Shown here one piece after another: positions 3,397 through 10,543 of a DNA stretch of 32,862 nt. A model generated the notes under the pieces. That model did not search any database and was not told where the DNA came from. It saw only the letters and a program-made list of their open reading frames with translations. The position numbers and the translations under genes are program-made. Location: NCBI GenBank assembly GCA_016201215.1, contig JACQDH010000213.1, positions 1-32,862 of the forward strand, read 5' to 3'. Positions within the stretch are counted from its first letter, which is position 1. Each line of letters starts with the position of its first letter. This DNA comes from Acidobacteriota bacterium (GTDB lineage Bacteria; Acidobacteriota; Terriglobia; Acidiferrales; UBA7541).

Positions 3397-3630
3397 CATC
3401 GGTGATTGGTTGCAACCCTTCACGGCTGCCCGCGCTCTCCGATTCGTTTTCGTGCGCGGAATCGCGGCGGCCTGAGATTCGAGTAAGCCCCGCAAATTTT
3501 TCCACCCACGAGCGTGAAAATGCGTTAGCCTGATTGGGCGCGGGGTCCCTTTTTTCGGCGGCAACCCTTGGCCGAGGAGTTGTATCCCATAGGCGGTCGC
3601 GTCGAAATTGTCTCAGGGGGAGCGTGGGAA

Positions 3631-5037
3631 ATGTGCGGGTCTCGCCTGCTAACCTCTCTTTTCTTGCTGAGTCTTGCCTGGATCGCCGGGTGCAGCGGCG
3701 GGGGTCAATTCCAGACGCCGCCGCCTCCGCCGCCGGGGTCAGCCCCGGTCAGCCTGACGATGACCGATACGCCGCCGGTGGGCGTGACCGTGCTGTCGTT
3801 TCAGATTCCCGTGACGGGAGCAGTGCTCAATCCGGGCAGCGTCTCGCTCGTCAACACGCCCACGACGATTGATTTCAAGCGCCTGGAGACCGAGAACGCA
3901 TACCTGAGCACAACGAACGTCCCCGCGGGCACCTACAGCGGCCTGACTCTCAGCCTGGGCAATCCGATCCTGACCTTCAAGAACGACACCGGCGCAGCCA
4001 TCGCAGCTTGCCCGAACACGCAGGTCTGCCAGGTCACGCCCTCGCCGCCCGTTCTGACCAACCTGATCCTGACCCCCGCGCCGCTTTTCCCGTTCACCGT
4101 CAGCCCCGACACGCCAGCGGGATTCCAGGTGGACATCAACATCAACAACGTCCTGACCACCACGATGTCACTGGACTTTACCGCGCCGGGAGCGGTGACG
4201 CTCACCGCGCTGCCCTCGGTGCCGCCTACGGGGCAATTCACGGCGATTGAAGACCTGATCGGCCAAGTCACCGCCAAGGACGCCGTCAACAGCCAGTTCA
4301 CCCTGCAGACTTCTCTGGGGCCGCTGGTGGTCAAGGTAGACAGCAACACTCTCTTTCAAGACTTCCTCGATGGCGGGTGCTCTTCGGCGAATTTCGCGTG
4401 CGTGCTGGTGGACCAGATTGTCGGAGTCGATGCCGTGTTGCTGGGCAGCGGGACGCTGCGGGCCAAGCGGGTCGAACTGAAGGATAGCAACGTCAGCGAG
4501 CCCGAAGTCGAAGGCGTGATCTTCGCGGTGGATAGCGGCTCGCAATTCCGCATGGTGGTCAGCGAGGTGGTCCCGGGCGTCAGCGGGCTCAGCGTGGGCA
4601 TCGTAGCCACCGTCGTCGTCAGTCCCACCACCAGCTTCAACATCGACAACGAGGGTCAGAACACCGGCAGCTTCGCCTTCAACTCCTCGAACGACCTACT
4701 GGTGGGCCAGGAGGTCCAGGTGAAGCGGCTCTCCACCTCTTTGGGCACGACGCTCAATGCGGGCCGGGTGCGCCTGCGCGCGTCGCGATTTACCCCGAAA
4801 ATCGCCTCCATCAATGCGCCGATCCTGACCTTCACGGTCAACACTCTCCCAGCACTGTTCACCGTCGCGGGGATCGCCACCGTCACGGTGCAGACCTCGG
4901 CGCAAACCCAGTTTGCCGGAAACGCCAGCAGCTTTAGCCAACTTGCCGTGGGCAACACGGTTTCGCTCCGCGGCCAGCTTTTCCGCAACGGGGCGAATCC
5001 GCCCGTGCTGGTGACGAGCAAAGTCCTCAAGCGCTGA
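3631..5037 (+). CDS. DUF4382/DUF5666-type secreted lipoprotein
   Basis: This is a 468-aa predicted lipoprotein. Residues 1-20 form a signal peptide, and the lipobox I18-A19-G20-C21 gives the lipidated Cys21. A proline-rich linker with PPPPPP follows. The next part resembles DUF4382: it begins VSLTMTDTPPVGV and has the VPAGTYSGLTLSL motif typical of that fold. From about residue 210 there are repeated beta-rich segments with GQVTAKD, VEGVIFAVD and VGNTVSLRG patterns, like DUF5666 modules. The role of these domains is unknown, and surface or outer-membrane beta-sandwich structure is inferred. The ATG at 3631 was chosen because it begins the signal peptide and has GGGGGAG at 3616-3622. An upstream in-frame start at 3568 would bury the signal peptide. 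Terminator-like hairpins on both sides make it look monocistronic. Confidence 0.8.
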   Translation: MCGSRLLTSLFLLSLAWIAGCSGGGQFQTPPPPPPGSAPVSLTMTDTPPVGVTVLSFQIPVTGAVLNPGSVSLVNTPTTIDFKRLETENAYLSTTNVPAGTYSGLTLSLGNPILTFKNDTGAAIAACPNTQVCQVTPSPPVLTNLILTPAPLFPFTVSPDTPAGFQVDININNVLTTTMSLDFTAPGAVTLTALPSVPPTGQFTAIEDLIGQVTAKDAVNSQFTLQTSLGPLVVKVDSNTLFQDFLDGGCSSANFACVLVDQIVGVDAVLLGSGTLRAKRVELKDSNVSEPEVEGVIFAVDSGSQFRMVVSEVVPGVSGLSVGIVATVVVSPTTSFNIDNEGQNTGSFAFNSSNDLLVGQEVQVKRLSTSLGTTLNAGRVRLRASRFTPKIASINAPILTFTVNTLPALFTVAGIATVTVQTSAQTQFAGNASSFSQLAVGNTVSLRGQLFRNGANPPVLVTSKVLKR

Positions 5038-5121: not shown

Positions 5122-6420
5122 CTAGAGCGCTGGCGCCTGCGCGGGAGCCATCGCCTGCTGGCGCGCACCCCGGTAAATGGCCAGGGTCAAGGCCCCCAGC
5201 CCCCAGAGAAGGACCGCGAGCCAGACGAACCAGCCAAGGAACGGGATCACTCCAAGCACGCGAATCACAAGCAATCCCAGCGCTAAGCGAGCAATGACTT
5301 CGCCGGTTCCCGCGGAGGGGCCAAGCAATTGCTCGCCGAGCCAGGTCCCGACGAACACTTGTGAAGCGTAGAGGGCGGGCGCAAAAAGCATCAAGACAAC
5401 GAGCCCTCCGGCCAGCCCGATGACAAGCAGAAGCACCGAAACACACGCCAGAATTAGCGCGCTAACCGCGGCGATGCTGCCCACGGCGAACGACATCCCG
5501 TAGCGACGGCTGGATCGCACCACGTCGGCGAAAAATCCCGGAACCAGCGAGGCAATCAGCACCCCAAAGAGGAATGCAACACCCCATCGCAGGGCCAGCC
5601 CGATATAGAAGCGAGGCTTGGTGTAATCCGGGCGATGGCTGACGATCTTGACCTCGAGCGGGCTGGCGAGCTTGGCCTGGGGCGACACCTCGGGCTGGCG
5701 CGCTCCCTGGTAAGTGGCCTTGCCGGCGATCTCCGCGCTCGGGCCGATCGTTAGGCGGTCGCTCGCCACCCGCGCGTTTCCGCCAATGAATCCGTTCAGC
5801 ACGCTCTTGCCGATAAAGCCGAGCAGATCGCGGTTCATTCGGCCATCGAGCGAGGCGTCGCCCGCGAACAATATCATCCCGCCGCCCGCCCGCGACTTGG
5901 AATCAAACTCGACGCTTCCCGCGAAGGCGGTCACGTTTTTCGCCACCGGGCCCGTGAGCGTGAGCATATTGGCGAAAGCGCGTACATTACCATCCACCTG
6001 GCCGTTAATGCGCACCATCTGCGAAAAGCTGATCACATCGCCGGTAATATGCCCGTTGATGGTCAGGCTTTGGCAGAAGACGATCAGGTCGCCGTCCACG
6101 GTGCCGTCAATGCGTGCCGTGCCCGCGGCCACGATTAAATCGTTGTGGACCGTTTGCCCGACGGGCAGCGTGTAGACGTGCACGTGTTTGGTCTCCGCTG
6201 CGCCTGCTGACGGCGGCAGAGCGAGCGCCGCCAGGAACGTACCCAGCACCTCTTCTTCCACCAGCGCCTGCGTGAGCAGGCGGGATTCGCGCTCGAGCGC
6301 GCGCAGCAGTGCGCGGCATTCCGCGCAGCTCTCAGCGTGCGCCGAAAGTTCCAGCGCCCGCGGGCGCTCCAATTGCCCCTCGAGATAGAGCAGGCAGGTC
6401 ATTTCATCGAAGTGGGTCAT
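5122..6420 (-). CDS. Zinc-finger anti-sigma factor fused to bactofilin-like and multi-pass membrane domains
   Basis: This 432-aa protein is the likely partner of the ECF sigma factor encoded just upstream. Residues 1-40 form an anti-sigma zinc-finger domain with the H28-x3-C32-x2-C35 motif (zf-HC2 type). Roughly residues 85-235 are short repeated beta-strands of the DGDLIVF, GDVISFS and GNVRAFA kind, as in polymer-forming (bactofilin-like) beta-helices. From about residue 265 to 420 there are several hydrophobic stretches consistent with four or more membrane helices, and the tail is short and Ala/Pro-rich. The start ATG overlaps the sigma stop in an ATGA, which implies translational coupling. 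I infer that the membrane part anchors the protein, while the beta-helix may sense or polymerise. What signal it detects is unknown. The stop is TAG. Confidence 0.82.
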   Translation of the reverse strand: MTHFDEMTCLLYLEGQLERPRALELSAHAESCAECRALLRALERESRLLTQALVEEEVLGTFLAALALPPSAGAAETKHVHVYTLPVGQTVHNDLIVAAGTARIDGTVDGDLIVFCQSLTINGHITGDVISFSQMVRINGQVDGNVRAFANMLTLTGPVAKNVTAFAGSVEFDSKSRAGGGMILFAGDASLDGRMNRDLLGFIGKSVLNGFIGGNARVASDRLTIGPSAEIAGKATYQGARQPEVSPQAKLASPLEVKIVSHRPDYTKPRFYIGLALRWGVAFLFGVLIASLVPGFFADVVRSSRRYGMSFAVGSIAAVSALILACVSVLLLVIGLAGGLVVLMLFAPALYASQVFVGTWLGEQLLGPSAGTGEVIARLALGLLVIRVLGVIPFLGWFVWLAVLLWGLGALTLAIYRGARQQAMAPAQAPAL

Positions 6421-7028
6421 GGGCTCCCTCCTGCGGCGCGTCCCGCAGCGCCGCGCTGGCCCAGCGCTTCGCGCAACTGATGGCGAGCGCGCAGCAGCAC
6501 CACGCCGACAAAGGCGCGGCGCACGCCCAGAGAGTCAGCAATTTCGTCGTAACTCATGTCCGCGTGGTAGCGCAGCACCAGCGCCATGCGCGCCCGCGCG
6601 GGCAGGCTGGCCAGCGCCCGGCGCACTTCCTGGCTGGTGCGCTGCTCGACCAGACGCTCGAGCTGGCTGGGATCGGGATGCTCGAGCGGCAGGTCTTCCA
6701 CGTCGCTGGTTTCGAGGTCCTGCCGGATGCGCCGCCGGCGCAGGATGTCCCAGCAGTGGTTGGTGGCCACCTTGTAGAGCCAGGCACTGAACGGCCGGCT
6801 GGGGTCGTACTGGTCGAGCCTTGCCCGCACCTTCAAGAAAATCTCCATGGTGGCGTCCTCGGCGTCTTCGCGCGAGGGCAATGCCCGGCGGCAGAAGCGG
6901 AAGATGGCCGCGGCGTACTGGCGGTAGAGCTCTCCCCAGGCGTCGGAATTCCCACTCCGGGCCCGGGAGATCGCGTCGGAGATCTCGGCGGCGCTCATCC
7001 CTTCCGGCCGTTTCCGTGCATCCACCAT
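6417..7028 (-). CDS. ECF-family RNA polymerase sigma factor
   Basis: This 203-aa protein has the two-domain layout of group 4 (ECF) sigma factors. Region 2 lies at about residues 29-100, including AWGELYRQY, DAEDATMEIFLKV and the -10-recognition helix WLYKVATNHCWDILRRR. Region 4 lies at about 140-190, with LPARARMALVLRYHADMSYDEIADSLGV forming the helix-turn-helix that reads the -35 box. It directs polymerase to a regulon that cannot be deduced from this window. The gene overlaps the anti-sigma gene by 4 nt, the usual pairing, so its activity is probably held in check by that membrane protein. The ATG at 7028 gives the family length. Longer in-frame starts up to 7163 have no ribosome binding site or family similarity, and the ATG of MSAAEI, 30 nt downstream, is the alternative. 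Confidence 0.9.
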   Translation of the reverse strand: MVDARKRPEGMSAAEISDAISRARSGNSDAWGELYRQYAAAIFRFCRRALPSREDAEDATMEIFLKVRARLDQYDPSRPFSAWLYKVATNHCWDILRRRRIRQDLETSDVEDLPLEHPDPSQLERLVEQRTSQEVRRALASLPARARMALVLRYHADMSYDEIADSLGVRRAFVGVVLLRARHQLREALGQRGAAGRAAGGSP

Positions 7029-7200
7029 GTGATACGCACCGCCTAGGAAAGAACTTACACCCAAATTAATGGGAGGCAGAGACAAAGCATTCCTGCCCTC
7101 GCTGTGGTTTCGCCTGGATGAAACTTCGCCTTGCCAAAGCAGGGTCCCTTTGGGGGAAAACACTTTAGCAGGGTTGGCTTCGGGAGGGGAGCAGGATTGG

Positions 7201-7259: not shown

Positions 7260-10200
7260 TTAGAACATCACTTTCAGTGCGAGCTGGATGCCGCGCGGCC
7301 CCCCACCGCCCAGGAAGGGATACCCGATGCCCACGTCTCCAGTCGTCGAAAGTGCAAGGCTGCCGATGCTGCGGCCGCTTGCACTGATTCCATTCTGCGC
7401 TGCATCTGCGATGAAAAGCGGCAGGTATGGGTTGGAGAAGTTGGGATGGTTGGGCAAATTGTAAAACTCGACGAAGTTAGGTCGAGAAACTGGTTGGGGT
7501 CGCCACGGTTGTACCGGATGGGACCGGGCACGTCGGGCCGCCCGAAGAACTCTCCGCTGCCGTCGTAGTCACCTTGAAAATTGTAGTTGAGGTGAAAGGG
7601 CTGACCTGATTGGAGCGTGAGCACGCCGTTGACACCCCAGCCATCGGTTAACCTCGACCAACTCCCCTTTCTCTTCGGGAACTCATAAATAAAGTTCCAC
7701 ACCAGCCGCTGCCGGACGTCAAAGTTTGAGTTGCCCTTCTCCAGATTCGGACGAAGGCTGTCGTTCGGCTGGGCCGCATTGGGCACGAAGTCTTCGCCGT
7801 CGCTGGCGTCATCAATGGAATGCGACCAGACATAGTTTAGGGTCGAGTCGAGCCCGTGCCACCCGCGCATGCGGAAGCTCACCTGCAATGCCTGGTAATT
7901 CGAGTTGGCTGAGGATTCCTGCTGGTTGATGTAGAAGAATGCAGTGTTGGGCCGAGGTACGCCGCCGCTAGAGCTGCAGTCGCAGGCGAGGTCTGCGGCC
8001 CTGATGGCTGCTTGGCTCGGCTGATTGATGTCGCGGAAGCGAAAGAGCTTATGTCCATTCGAGCCCACGTAGCCGACTTGCAGCATAGCGTGGCCCCCGA
8101 TCTGCTGCTGGATGTTCAAGTTGTAGTTTTGCATGTAAGGCGTGCGGATATTCCGGTCCACGGCGAATAGATCACCATTGTTTGCGAACCCGCCGAAAAC
8201 AGGCGCCGTCGTGGCTAGAGGACCTGCGTTGGCGCTGCCGGATGTGATGATGAAGGCGGCAGCGCCTGTGGGATTGTAGGCCGGCCCCGGGTCGAACCCG
8301 CTGTTAAACGGCAGGTGGCCCATAAAGAAATCCTGGGAGAAGGCGTCGTAGAACAGGCCATAGCCGGCCCGAATCACCGTGCGGCCCTTCCCTGTCACGT
8401 CCCAGGCCACGCTCACGCGGGGAGCAAAGTTGTTGTAGTCCGGCTCGTAGAGCTCGTTCACCGGCCGCAGCCCGTTCGTGAAATCGAAGTTGCTGAACAG
8501 GTTGCGCTTCTCGTGCACGACACCGTAGTAGTCCCAGCGCGCACCGAGGTTGAGTGTAAGTCGCCGCGTCCACCGGATGCTATCCTGTAGGTAGAACCCA
8601 TGATTGTTCTCGAAGGTGTTACGGTTGGAATTCCCCTTTGCCTGGCTGCCCCCACCTGGGTTGCCAGCAAGGAAATCGGAAAGCGAGTCGAAGCTCAGCT
8701 TGCCGCGAAAGTTGGTGTCGAGGACTTGCGCGATTGAAGTCCGCCGAAACTCATAGCCAAACTTCACATCGTGGCGGCCAAACTTCCAGGAAAAGTTGTC
8801 GATGAAGTGCCAGTTCGTATCCACGCGGTTGCGCGGTGTGGTTTTGCTGGCGCCAAGTTGTGCAAACCCGCTTACAGCAATTACCGGCAGCCCGAAGTCC
8901 CTGGATCCGACTCCAGTGTTCAGCCCGATGGAGTTGGGATCGAAGTTCTGGTCCTCAGGAAAGAATCCTTCAGCGAAGCGGTTCCAGCCGAATCGCGCTT
9001 CGTTCACTTTAGTGGGCGAGATCAGGGACACATACGAGATGGACACGAGTTGGACGCGCGTCGGCGTAAAGGTGTTGAATCCGGGAAGGATTCCTCCGCC
9101 GACGAGAGCCAGAGGAAAACTCTGATCACTGTCCCCAAAGTAATAGCGGCCGGTTAGCAGATGATCCCGGCTGAAGTTATGGTCGATCTTGGCGATGACG
9201 CTATCCACGCGGTTCCGGAAAGGAGTACTCGTCGCGAGGTTTGGACCCTCGGGACATCCTGCGTCACGGGCAGCAGAGGCTGGCTGGATATTCCTATTCG
9301 GGGCGGGCCAGGGATTGCGTGTCAGCAGCCCAGCAATCACCGGATTGCTTGCCCCACCGTCGAAAGCAATCTGTGCGGGGGTGGGTACGCACGCCAGGCT
9401 GGCCTGAGCTCCCGATTCGCGCAAGCCCTCATAGTCGGCGAAGAAGAACGTCTTATCGCGAATGATTGGTCCGCCAAAAAAACCACCGAATTGATTGTTG
9501 TGAAACGGGTTCTGAGGTTGCGTCTTGTCATTGAAAAAGTTGCGCGCGTCGAGCGCGTTGTTGCGGAAGTACTCAAACGCGGTGCCGTGGAAATCGTTCG
9601 TGCCGCTCTTGGTGACGATATTGATGACCGCACCGGCGTTGCGTCCGTACTCGGCCTCGTAGTTGGAGAGCACTCGGAGTTCTGCAACAGCCTCCACGGG
9701 CAGAATCGTGGCGGGCGTCCCGAACACCCCGGCCTCGTTGATGGCCGGGTCATTGCGGTAGCCGTCGTTCATGTCCGTGCCGTCGAGCAGGAAATTGTTG
9801 GAGCGACCGCGAGCACCATTCATGGAGAAGACGCCGAATGAACCCGGTGAATCGGTGATCTGGTCCGGAGAGCCGGTAATGCCCGGCACCATGTAGATCA
9901 GCTTCTGATAGTCACGGCCATTGACTGGCAGATTGAGCGCCTGGGACGCTTCAATAGTTCCACCCATTAAATTGGTTGTGGTTTCGACCAGCGGCAATGT
10001 CTCCGCCGACACTTCAATCCGTTGCGCCACGTCACCCGGTTGCAGGGTGACATCGACGCGCCGCTCGCCAGCCACGTCCACACGCACCCCCGTCGTGACC
10101 ACGGTCCGGAAGTTGGCCTTCTCCACGGTCACGGTGTAGTTCCCGATAGGAAGTTCAGGTACGGCATAGCTGCCATCGTCGGTGGTTTGCGCTTCGCGCG

Positions 10201-10393
10201 TCAGGCCCGTATCCGCGTTGCGAACGATGACCTTGGCACCGGGTACCACGCCGCCGCTTTTATCGGTGACCGTGCCGAGAATCGTCCCGCGGAAGGTTTG
10301 CGCGTTTCCGGGGAGACAAACGAGCGCCATCAACACCAGCAGCACGGACACCCGTGCGGCCCACACGTGTATCGCTCGAGCCGACGTGTTCAT
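7260..10393 (-). CDS. TonB-dependent receptor, Oar-like, with a frame break near the C-terminus
   Basis: This is a large outer-membrane receptor. A signal peptide ending near NAQ (about residue 31) is followed by a carboxypeptidase-regulatory-like beta-sandwich (GTVTDKSGGVVPGAKV). Next come a TonB plug with MNGARGRSNNFLLDGTDMND and VTKSGTNDFHGTAFEYFRN, and a long beta-barrel. Acidobacteria carry many such receptors, and the substrate cannot be told. The start at 10393 has AGGAG 6 nt upstream and a good sigma-70 promoter at 10515-10543. Near 7472-7485 the reading frame breaks. The upstream frame runs on into unrelated residues and stops at 7274. The downstream frame carries the family's real end, NLPNHPNFSNP through GGGGPRGIQLALKVMF, with the terminal Phe expected of a barrel protein, and stops at 7260. 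About 65 residues usually present between the two motifs also seem missing. Confidence 0.85.
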
Positions 10394-10514
10394 CGTGGTC
10401 TCCTTTTCGATGACAGGACAAGAATGGTCGCAGGAGGTGCGGGCCGAACGTTCCACGAGCGCTCCGCATCCCCTCGGGCGTAGCACCCCATGGCTTTTCC
10501 TCAGACTCCGTGTA

Positions 10515-10543
10515 CATATATGCGAATCCCCGGCCGGCGTCAA
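10515..10543 (-). promoter_or_regulatory. Sigma-70-like promoter of the TonB-dependent receptor
   Basis: On the minus strand TTGACG (10543-10538) and TATATG (10520-10515) are separated by exactly 17 nt. The -35 box matches consensus at 5 of 6 positions and the -10 box at 4 of 6. Transcription would start near 10508, leaving a leader of about 115 nt before the ATG at 10393. Confidence 0.55.

Follow-up and report, generated by a model that had tools for sequence, protein, structure and literature searches.

A PrsW-like site-1 protease acts on RsiW, the anti-sigma factor of sigmaW in the Bacillaceae, and the sigmaW promoter consensus is of the TGAAA-N-CGTA type. RsiW (PDB 5wuq/5wur) combines a zinc anti-sigma domain, one membrane helix and a bactofilin-like ectodomain whose beta part is very short. 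For RsiV, signal peptidase is described as the site-1 protease, acting after lysozyme binding at a conserved A-x-A site that follows the membrane helix; the RsiV ectodomains are DUF4163 and DUF3298 (PMC4183432, in part). RsiP is also cut by signal peptidase (PMC8844934, in part). In class I anti-sigma domains, helix 4 binds domain 2 of the sigma factor and is held to set specificity (PMC7406223, in part). Bactofilins form polymers that typically sit on the inner face of the membrane; their domain comprises about 110 residues, and about 3.2% of bacterial homologs have predicted N-terminal membrane helices (PMC12448750, in part). We found no description of a bactofilin/anti-sigma fusion, nor of a bactofilin-like RsiW ectodomain, in the open-licence literature (most subscription papers and preprints fall outside this scope).

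The gene studied here lies in a 32,862-nucleotide stretch of DNA (the window) from the metagenome-assembled genome (MAG; GCA_016201215.1) of a soil bacterium of the Acidobacteriota. The family to which it belongs shares with RsiW the zinc anti-sigma domain, a membrane helix and the bactofilin-like ectodomain, and its sigma promoter is of the same TGAAA-N-CGTA type as that of sigmaW. It differs in layout: the window protein is modelled with four or five C-terminal membrane helices and a same-genus relative with three N-terminal ones, whereas RsiW has a single membrane helix and lacks a C-terminal membrane domain. With RsiV and RsiP the family shares an A-x-A site directly behind the membrane helix that precedes the ectodomain (A-G-A in the window protein). 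Neither RsiV nor RsiP has a known beta-helix, and the cleavage demonstrated there is predicted in the family. The family profile also reaches RsiW-like Geobacillus proteins (L102-L105) at E 8e-14 to 5e-15, with the same order of parts. One of these matches RsiW in the PDB at E 2.2e-21, and its ectodomain is weakly bactofilin-like (PF04519 at E 1e-4, 22.9 bits, below the cut-off):

5611-6219 of L103 (Geobacillus), plus strand: RsiW relative with a short bactofilin-like ectodomain

Results and discussion

Architecture of the window gene

The gene and its parts are as follows, in window coordinates.

5122..6420, minus strand: anti-sigma gene, an ORF of 432 amino acids with an ATG start, comprising zinc finger, beta-helix and membrane domain, with an internal gap compared with relatives
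6250..6420, minus strand: ChrR-like zinc anti-sigma domain, three-helix part only (residues 1-57; H3, H28, C32, C35)
6249..6250, minus strand: gap junction, residues 57/58, where 106 additional codons stand in the relative of the same genus (G001 = L002/L031)
6199..6249, minus strand: remnant of a signal-peptide-like helix (residues 58-74), ending in Ala-Gly-Ala (residues 72-74)
5638..6198, minus strand: bactofilin-like beta-helix (residues 75-261), about 11 turns of 17-18 residues, assigned from PF04519, the model and structure matches
5149..5616, minus strand: C-terminal membrane domain (residues 269-424) of four or five membrane helices

The zinc domain gave two matches, both below cut-off: Pfam zf-HC2 at residues 11-36 (E 0.015, 15.9 bits; cut-off 22.2 bits) and the NCBIfam ChrR-type anti-sigma model at residues 3-65 (E 2.6e-4, 20.9 bits, far below its cut-off of 124.5). 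The probable zinc ligands H3, H28, C32 and C35 do not vary in alignments of 24 and 43 sequences. They include the Hx3Cx2C motif of class I (ASDI) anti-sigma factors (H28-x3-C32-x2-C35, plus H3), and the three-helix bundle of that class is present in the model (helices 6-13, 19-31 and 33-54). Counting against the assignment, a profile of the zinc domain, run against the PDB, picked up anti-sigma structures at no better than E 0.08-0.34. The Pfam Bactofilin domain (PF04519) matched residues 97-163 at E 4.1e-7 with 30.6 bits, above its 27.9-bit cut-off. The model of the whole window protein (mean pLDDT 89.1, pTM 0.60) shows three N-terminal helices, a beta-helix at about residues 75-261 and helices at 269-424. 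An ECF sigma gene overlaps the start of the anti-sigma gene. An earlier note, made from the DNA sequence, had read the product as an anti-sigma zinc finger fused to a bactofilin-like beta-helix and a multi-pass membrane part, with a paired sigma factor. These assignments were borne out, and we regard it as confirmed that the 432-residue gene is real, has these three parts and is coupled to an ECF sigma gene. From its sequence the zinc domain would be expected to bind and inhibit that sigma factor.

Structure comparison with VIA-align paired the beta-helix with the right-handed beta-helices of EtpA, HxuA, HMW1 and hemopexin-binding protein (Z 17.3-18.2, rmsd 2.0-2.9), and with left-handed beta-helices too, at an rmsd near 11. 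No bactofilin stood among the best 50 matches listed, which excludes nothing; a Foldseek search against the PDB gave no match at E <= 0.001. A sequence comparison of the window protein with the PDB gave Bactofilin A as the top match, though only at E 0.19. Common to the window protein and bactofilins are the PF04519 sequence signature and a beta-helix. The window beta-helix is longer, about 190 residues compared with the canonical 110 or so (PMC12448750, in part). The setting also differs: bactofilins are compact domains with unstructured tails, whereas membrane helices flank both ends of the window beta-helix, and the beta-helix of the family is predicted to lie outside. The same MAG holds four stronger PF04519 matches of bactofilin size (E 2.5e-26 to 1.1e-22; the window protein scored E 1.0e-5 in that search).

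Distribution of the family

Matches to the window protein were found in 64 of 101 genomes of relatives and in 75 of 95 genomes of the order, its own genome included in both counts. The other 20 genomes of the order, which include all five of genus g13 (90-97% complete), have no match, a point against the explanation proposed below. Across the phylum, 14 of 297 sampled genomes match, own included, with at most four candidates scored per genome; among the other 13, the match covers the whole protein in three, all of one family, and the sensor half only in ten. When named genomes were first scanned using only the window protein as query, no relative was found. The named loci were found partly through a motif inside the block that the window gene lacks (see below) and are thus biased towards having it, whereas the searches with the window protein as query are free of this bias. 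Nearly all of the 54 close named loci (L031-L084) come from records titled as Acidobacteriota, Terriglobia or Candidatus Acidiferrales/Acidiferrum MAGs. L063 and L066, titled Bacillota and Betaproteobacteria, carry Acidobacteriota-type copies and are probably mislabelled bins. Pieces of all three parts are held by 49 of the 54; at contig ends, L080-L082 lack the front and L083-L084 the back. Among the 49, L077 is cut by the contig end, and L058 and L079 have broken frames. Alignments for folding and for counts used 42 of the 49, leaving out L051, L057, L058, L059, L074, L077 and L079.

A block missing from the window copy

The count is confined to relatives in which both halves match on a single contig; all 64 of these have 104-133 extra residues between the zinc finger and the beta-helix (47/47 gene pairs, then 17/17 further pairs, with the window protein as query). 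The match covers residues 1-57, breaks, and resumes over about 58-430. Compared with the same-genus relative, the window gene has lost that protein's residues 58-163, 106 codons, in frame. The block is found in every one of the 51 named ORFs with a zinc finger, a sample chosen in part for having it, and a more distant family of the phylum has three genomes whose match is continuous through the block. We are almost certain that it is absent from the assembled window copy. A hidden second copy in the same MAG (80.55% complete, 268 contigs) was considered and rejected, as a search up to E 10 found no match to the block elsewhere.

The gap sits inside the contig, not at its edge. The frame is open throughout, with no frameshift or stop, and no direct repeat was found at the junction in the remaining sequence (window 6100-6420); we therefore rejected repeat-mediated loss. 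The same-genus DNA is too diverged to reveal the ancestral ends of the gap. Of the 65 conserved columns outside the block, 62 are retained in the window copy, and seven of 42 relatives retain a smaller share. The copy shows no sign of decay, so a recent real deletion and an assembly fault look alike in the sequence.

The block contains two predicted membrane helices, a basic loop, a probable fourth anti-sigma helix and the start of the third membrane helix. A VPARL-like stretch (consensus VPARL), conserved in the relatives, modelled with low confidence and absent from the window copy, probably occupies the position that helix 4 has in class I anti-sigma domains. In front of its beta-helix the window copy has kept residues 1-57 and a 17-residue piece of the third helix, which includes the A-G-A site; the beta-helix itself and the C-terminal helices are also retained. 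The earlier note had found no strong helix between zinc finger and beta-helix. This holds for the window copy: the best 19-residue stretch, 57-75, averages 1.26 in hydropathy, lower than in any other of the 43 sequences (1.64 to 2.82). On these comparisons the missing membrane helix is peculiar to the window copy and not a family trait, and the topology puzzle that the note had raised is explained by the internal gap, real or assembled. Sigma binding and membrane insertion of this copy should both be weaker. As the complete helices that are missing are even in number, the layout with zinc domain inside and beta-helix outside may persist through the short remnant.

Topology of the family

The model of the same-genus protein, built with 42 sequences, has a mean pLDDT of 83.8 and a pTM of 0.55. 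Three helices (75-105, 122-153 and 157-171) precede its beta-helix (180-366), and six (376-399, 401-410, 414-436, 439-472, 478-496 and 502-525) follow it. Two points count against the model here: confidence in the block is low (across residues 51-180 the block means of pLDDT run at about 36-65), and the hydrophobicity of the first membrane helix is no more than moderate, with a family mean of 1.28. The charge distribution is pronounced, with a mean of 4.19 Lys/Arg in the loop before the third helix versus 0.33 in the loop after the first (42 sequences); all 42 have at least two in the former. Judged from its sequence, the third helix is built like a signal peptide, with a basic start, a hydrophobic core, often a proline, and then A-x-A followed by [AGST]-[ED]. 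At the cleavage-like site, position -1 is Ala in 42 of 43 sequences, -3 is Ala in 39 of 43 and +2 is Glu or Asp in all 43. The complete motif occurs in 37 of 43, the departures in the other six counting against it. Position -1 is one of only two alignment columns with Ala in at least 42 of the 43.

Since the zinc finger is placed inside and three helices, an odd number, precede the beta-helix, the models make it very probable that the beta-helix of the family lies outside the inner membrane. The earlier note had suggested that it may be cytoplasmic and, if polymerising as bactofilins do, might couple sigma release to envelope assembly or shape. As a topology for the family, a cytoplasmic bactofilin-like polymer is rejected by prediction, given the loop charges, the helix count and the signal-peptide-like end. 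A membrane helix ahead of the repeats, which the note had named as evidence against its own reading, is found in the relatives, three such helices being present in the same-genus model. For the window copy alone a cytoplasmic beta-helix keeps a low probability.

Sigma gene, promoter and neighbours

6417..7028, minus strand: cognate ECF sigma gene, 203 amino acids from the ATG at 7028 (or from an in-frame ATG ten codons on), with an ATGA overlap with the anti-sigma gene
7032..7059, minus strand: conserved promoter-like site of autoregulatory type, TGTAAGTT-N13-TGCGTAT, directly before the sigma gene
3568..5037, plus strand: DUF4382/DUF5666 protein gene, convergent conserved neighbour (Pfam, locus comparison)
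7274-10543, minus strand: carboxypeptidase-regulatory/TonB-dependent outer-membrane barrel gene, upstream of the sigma gene

The best NCBIfam model for the sigma factor is that of the general ECF superfamily; SigE and SigW come next, below their cut-offs. The sigma gene is directly upstream of the anti-sigma gene in 48 of 49 named loci and 283 bases off in L076. Gapped words of the type TGAAA-N18-CGTA occur in up to 23 of 50 regions upstream of sigma genes (the 49 loci and the window), versus at most five in five crude shuffles of two-base pieces, a contrast that is not a probability because the regions are related. Strict forms of the promoter are present in 25 regions and relaxed forms in 14 more, including the window; 11 have neither. 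The combined pattern matches 27 times in the 593,097 bases of the 54 loci, always at known sites just before sigma. In the 3.29 Mb MAG it matches once, at the window sigma gene, and the reversed control gave none. As the pattern is confined to sites before sigma, the sequences point to autoregulation and, as far as the strict pattern goes, to a small regulon; genes with looser sites would escape it. About four bases separate the -10 element from the first sigma ATG (window 6998-7059, minus strand), which would allow a leaderless transcript or a translation start at the second in-frame ATG.

Neighbours were counted in 45 of the 49 loci. The DUF4382/DUF5666 gene is convergent to the anti-sigma gene in 29 of the 45, at 17-627 bases. 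It was considered as a regulon member and rejected, the relaxed motif lying on the gene's strand in two of 29 regions, which is not convincing. A relative of the barrel gene is upstream in 18 of 45 loci, in 14 of these oriented like sigma.

Proposed mechanism and origin

The best explanation, to which we assign as a whole a probability of roughly 0.6, is that these proteins are membrane anti-sigma factors of Acidobacteriota with a beta-helix sensor outside. It builds on features read directly from sequence (the domains, the relatives' extra block, the conserved site, the sigma adjacency and the promoter-like motif) and adds to them a putative topology, sigma binding, cleavage, signal and autoregulation. 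In full-length members, the cytoplasmic ChrR-like zinc domain and the short fourth helix (VPARL) would hold the ECF sigma factor. Two membrane helices and the signal-peptide-like third would lead to the outside beta-helix, behind which another four or five membrane helices would come. The beta-helix module would sense the envelope or a ligand; type I signal peptidase would thereby gain access to the A-x-A site, which would lie just beyond the membrane, and a site-2 protease would then free the zinc domain. The released sigma factor would amplify itself through the conserved promoter of its own gene. Candidates for both proteases exist in the MAG: there are three matches to S26 signal peptidases, and three ORFs match the M50 site-2 proteases. 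That the signal peptidase site is actually used as a switch is a tentative proposal with less than an even chance.

Proteins without the zinc finger also occur, in which an apparent signal peptide is followed by the same beta-helix and the same membrane domain (L085-L096, L099, L115 and L119). The records are titled Chloroflexi, Anaerolineales, Acidimicrobiia, Symbiobacteriaceae and Halovenus, among others. Their signal peptides were judged by eye and are not clear in L092 and L093. They align with the family from the signal-peptide-like helix on (profile positions 151-165 onward) and differ from it in having neither the zinc finger nor the added N-terminal membrane helices. Because such stand-alone proteins exist, the sensor half looks, on sequence, like a pre-existing exported membrane protein taken over whole, signal peptidase site included. 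We consider rather unlikely a more specific version, in which the exported sensor was joined behind an anti-sigma factor and the conserved GAFWKGW membrane block covers the sensor's signal peptide, now internal, until a change or assembly of the beta-helix lets it be cut and sigma be released, with signal peptidase as switch or divider. In a separate observation, a Myxococcales ORF (L100, from 4396, plus strand) ends in the same beta-helix and membrane domain and lies beside another beta-helix protein; its front may contain a different anti-sigma-like region and has no Pfam match.

The signal-peptide-like end may also be no switch. Constitutive cutting would yield a zinc-finger/three-helix protein plus a sensor protein of its own, the two communicating by contact; alternatively, the end would stay uncut while another, PrsW-like site-1 protease acts. 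The site resembles ordinary signal peptide ends and the sensor half is also found as stand-alone proteins. The A-x-A site may be left over from the origin of the module, or may be cut right after insertion or never. Nevertheless, the relatives read have both halves in a single gene; this speaks for a common function, though not for an uncut joining. We give the no-switch alternative somewhat less than an even chance.

For the window copy itself, the gap may be an assembly or population artefact of the MAG, the organism carrying an ordinary full-length gene. This has a substantial probability, though clearly below one half. The window copy is the sole block-less one among those with both halves on one contig, the MAG is incomplete and fragmented, the conserved columns are largely kept and conserved neighbours flank the gene on both sides; the gap is, however, exactly in frame and contig-internal, and the junction lacks a direct repeat. 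If the deletion is real, the beta-helix might be cytoplasmic in this copy, or the protein might insert wrongly. The remaining helix is the weakest of the 43, acidic residues precede it in place of the basic loop, and it is modelled at pLDDT <50. Nevertheless, the ancestral sidedness is unchanged when complete helices go in an even number, the A-G-A end followed by A-E and 11 hydrophobic residues are still there, and an inside beta-helix would presumably force the C-terminal helices to invert; we find this outcome improbable. Slightly less so, but still doubtful, is that the window allele is a broken anti-sigma factor whose sigma runs free. It has lost the stretch at the position of helix 4, the helix that binds sigma domain 2 (PMC7406223, in part), but the three-helix part, zinc ligands, promoter and sigma gene are all intact, in a gene with neither stop nor frameshift.

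Conclusions

If the reading of the family as membrane anti-sigma factors with an outside beta-helix sensor and a signal peptidase step is true, the signal-peptidase-controlled sigma release of RsiV and RsiP in Bacillus would extend to the Acidobacteriota and to a beta-helix sensor. The bactofilin-like fold would gain an envelope-sensing role beyond the cytoplasm. For the short RsiW ectodomain, the comparison also suggests a reading that can be tested.
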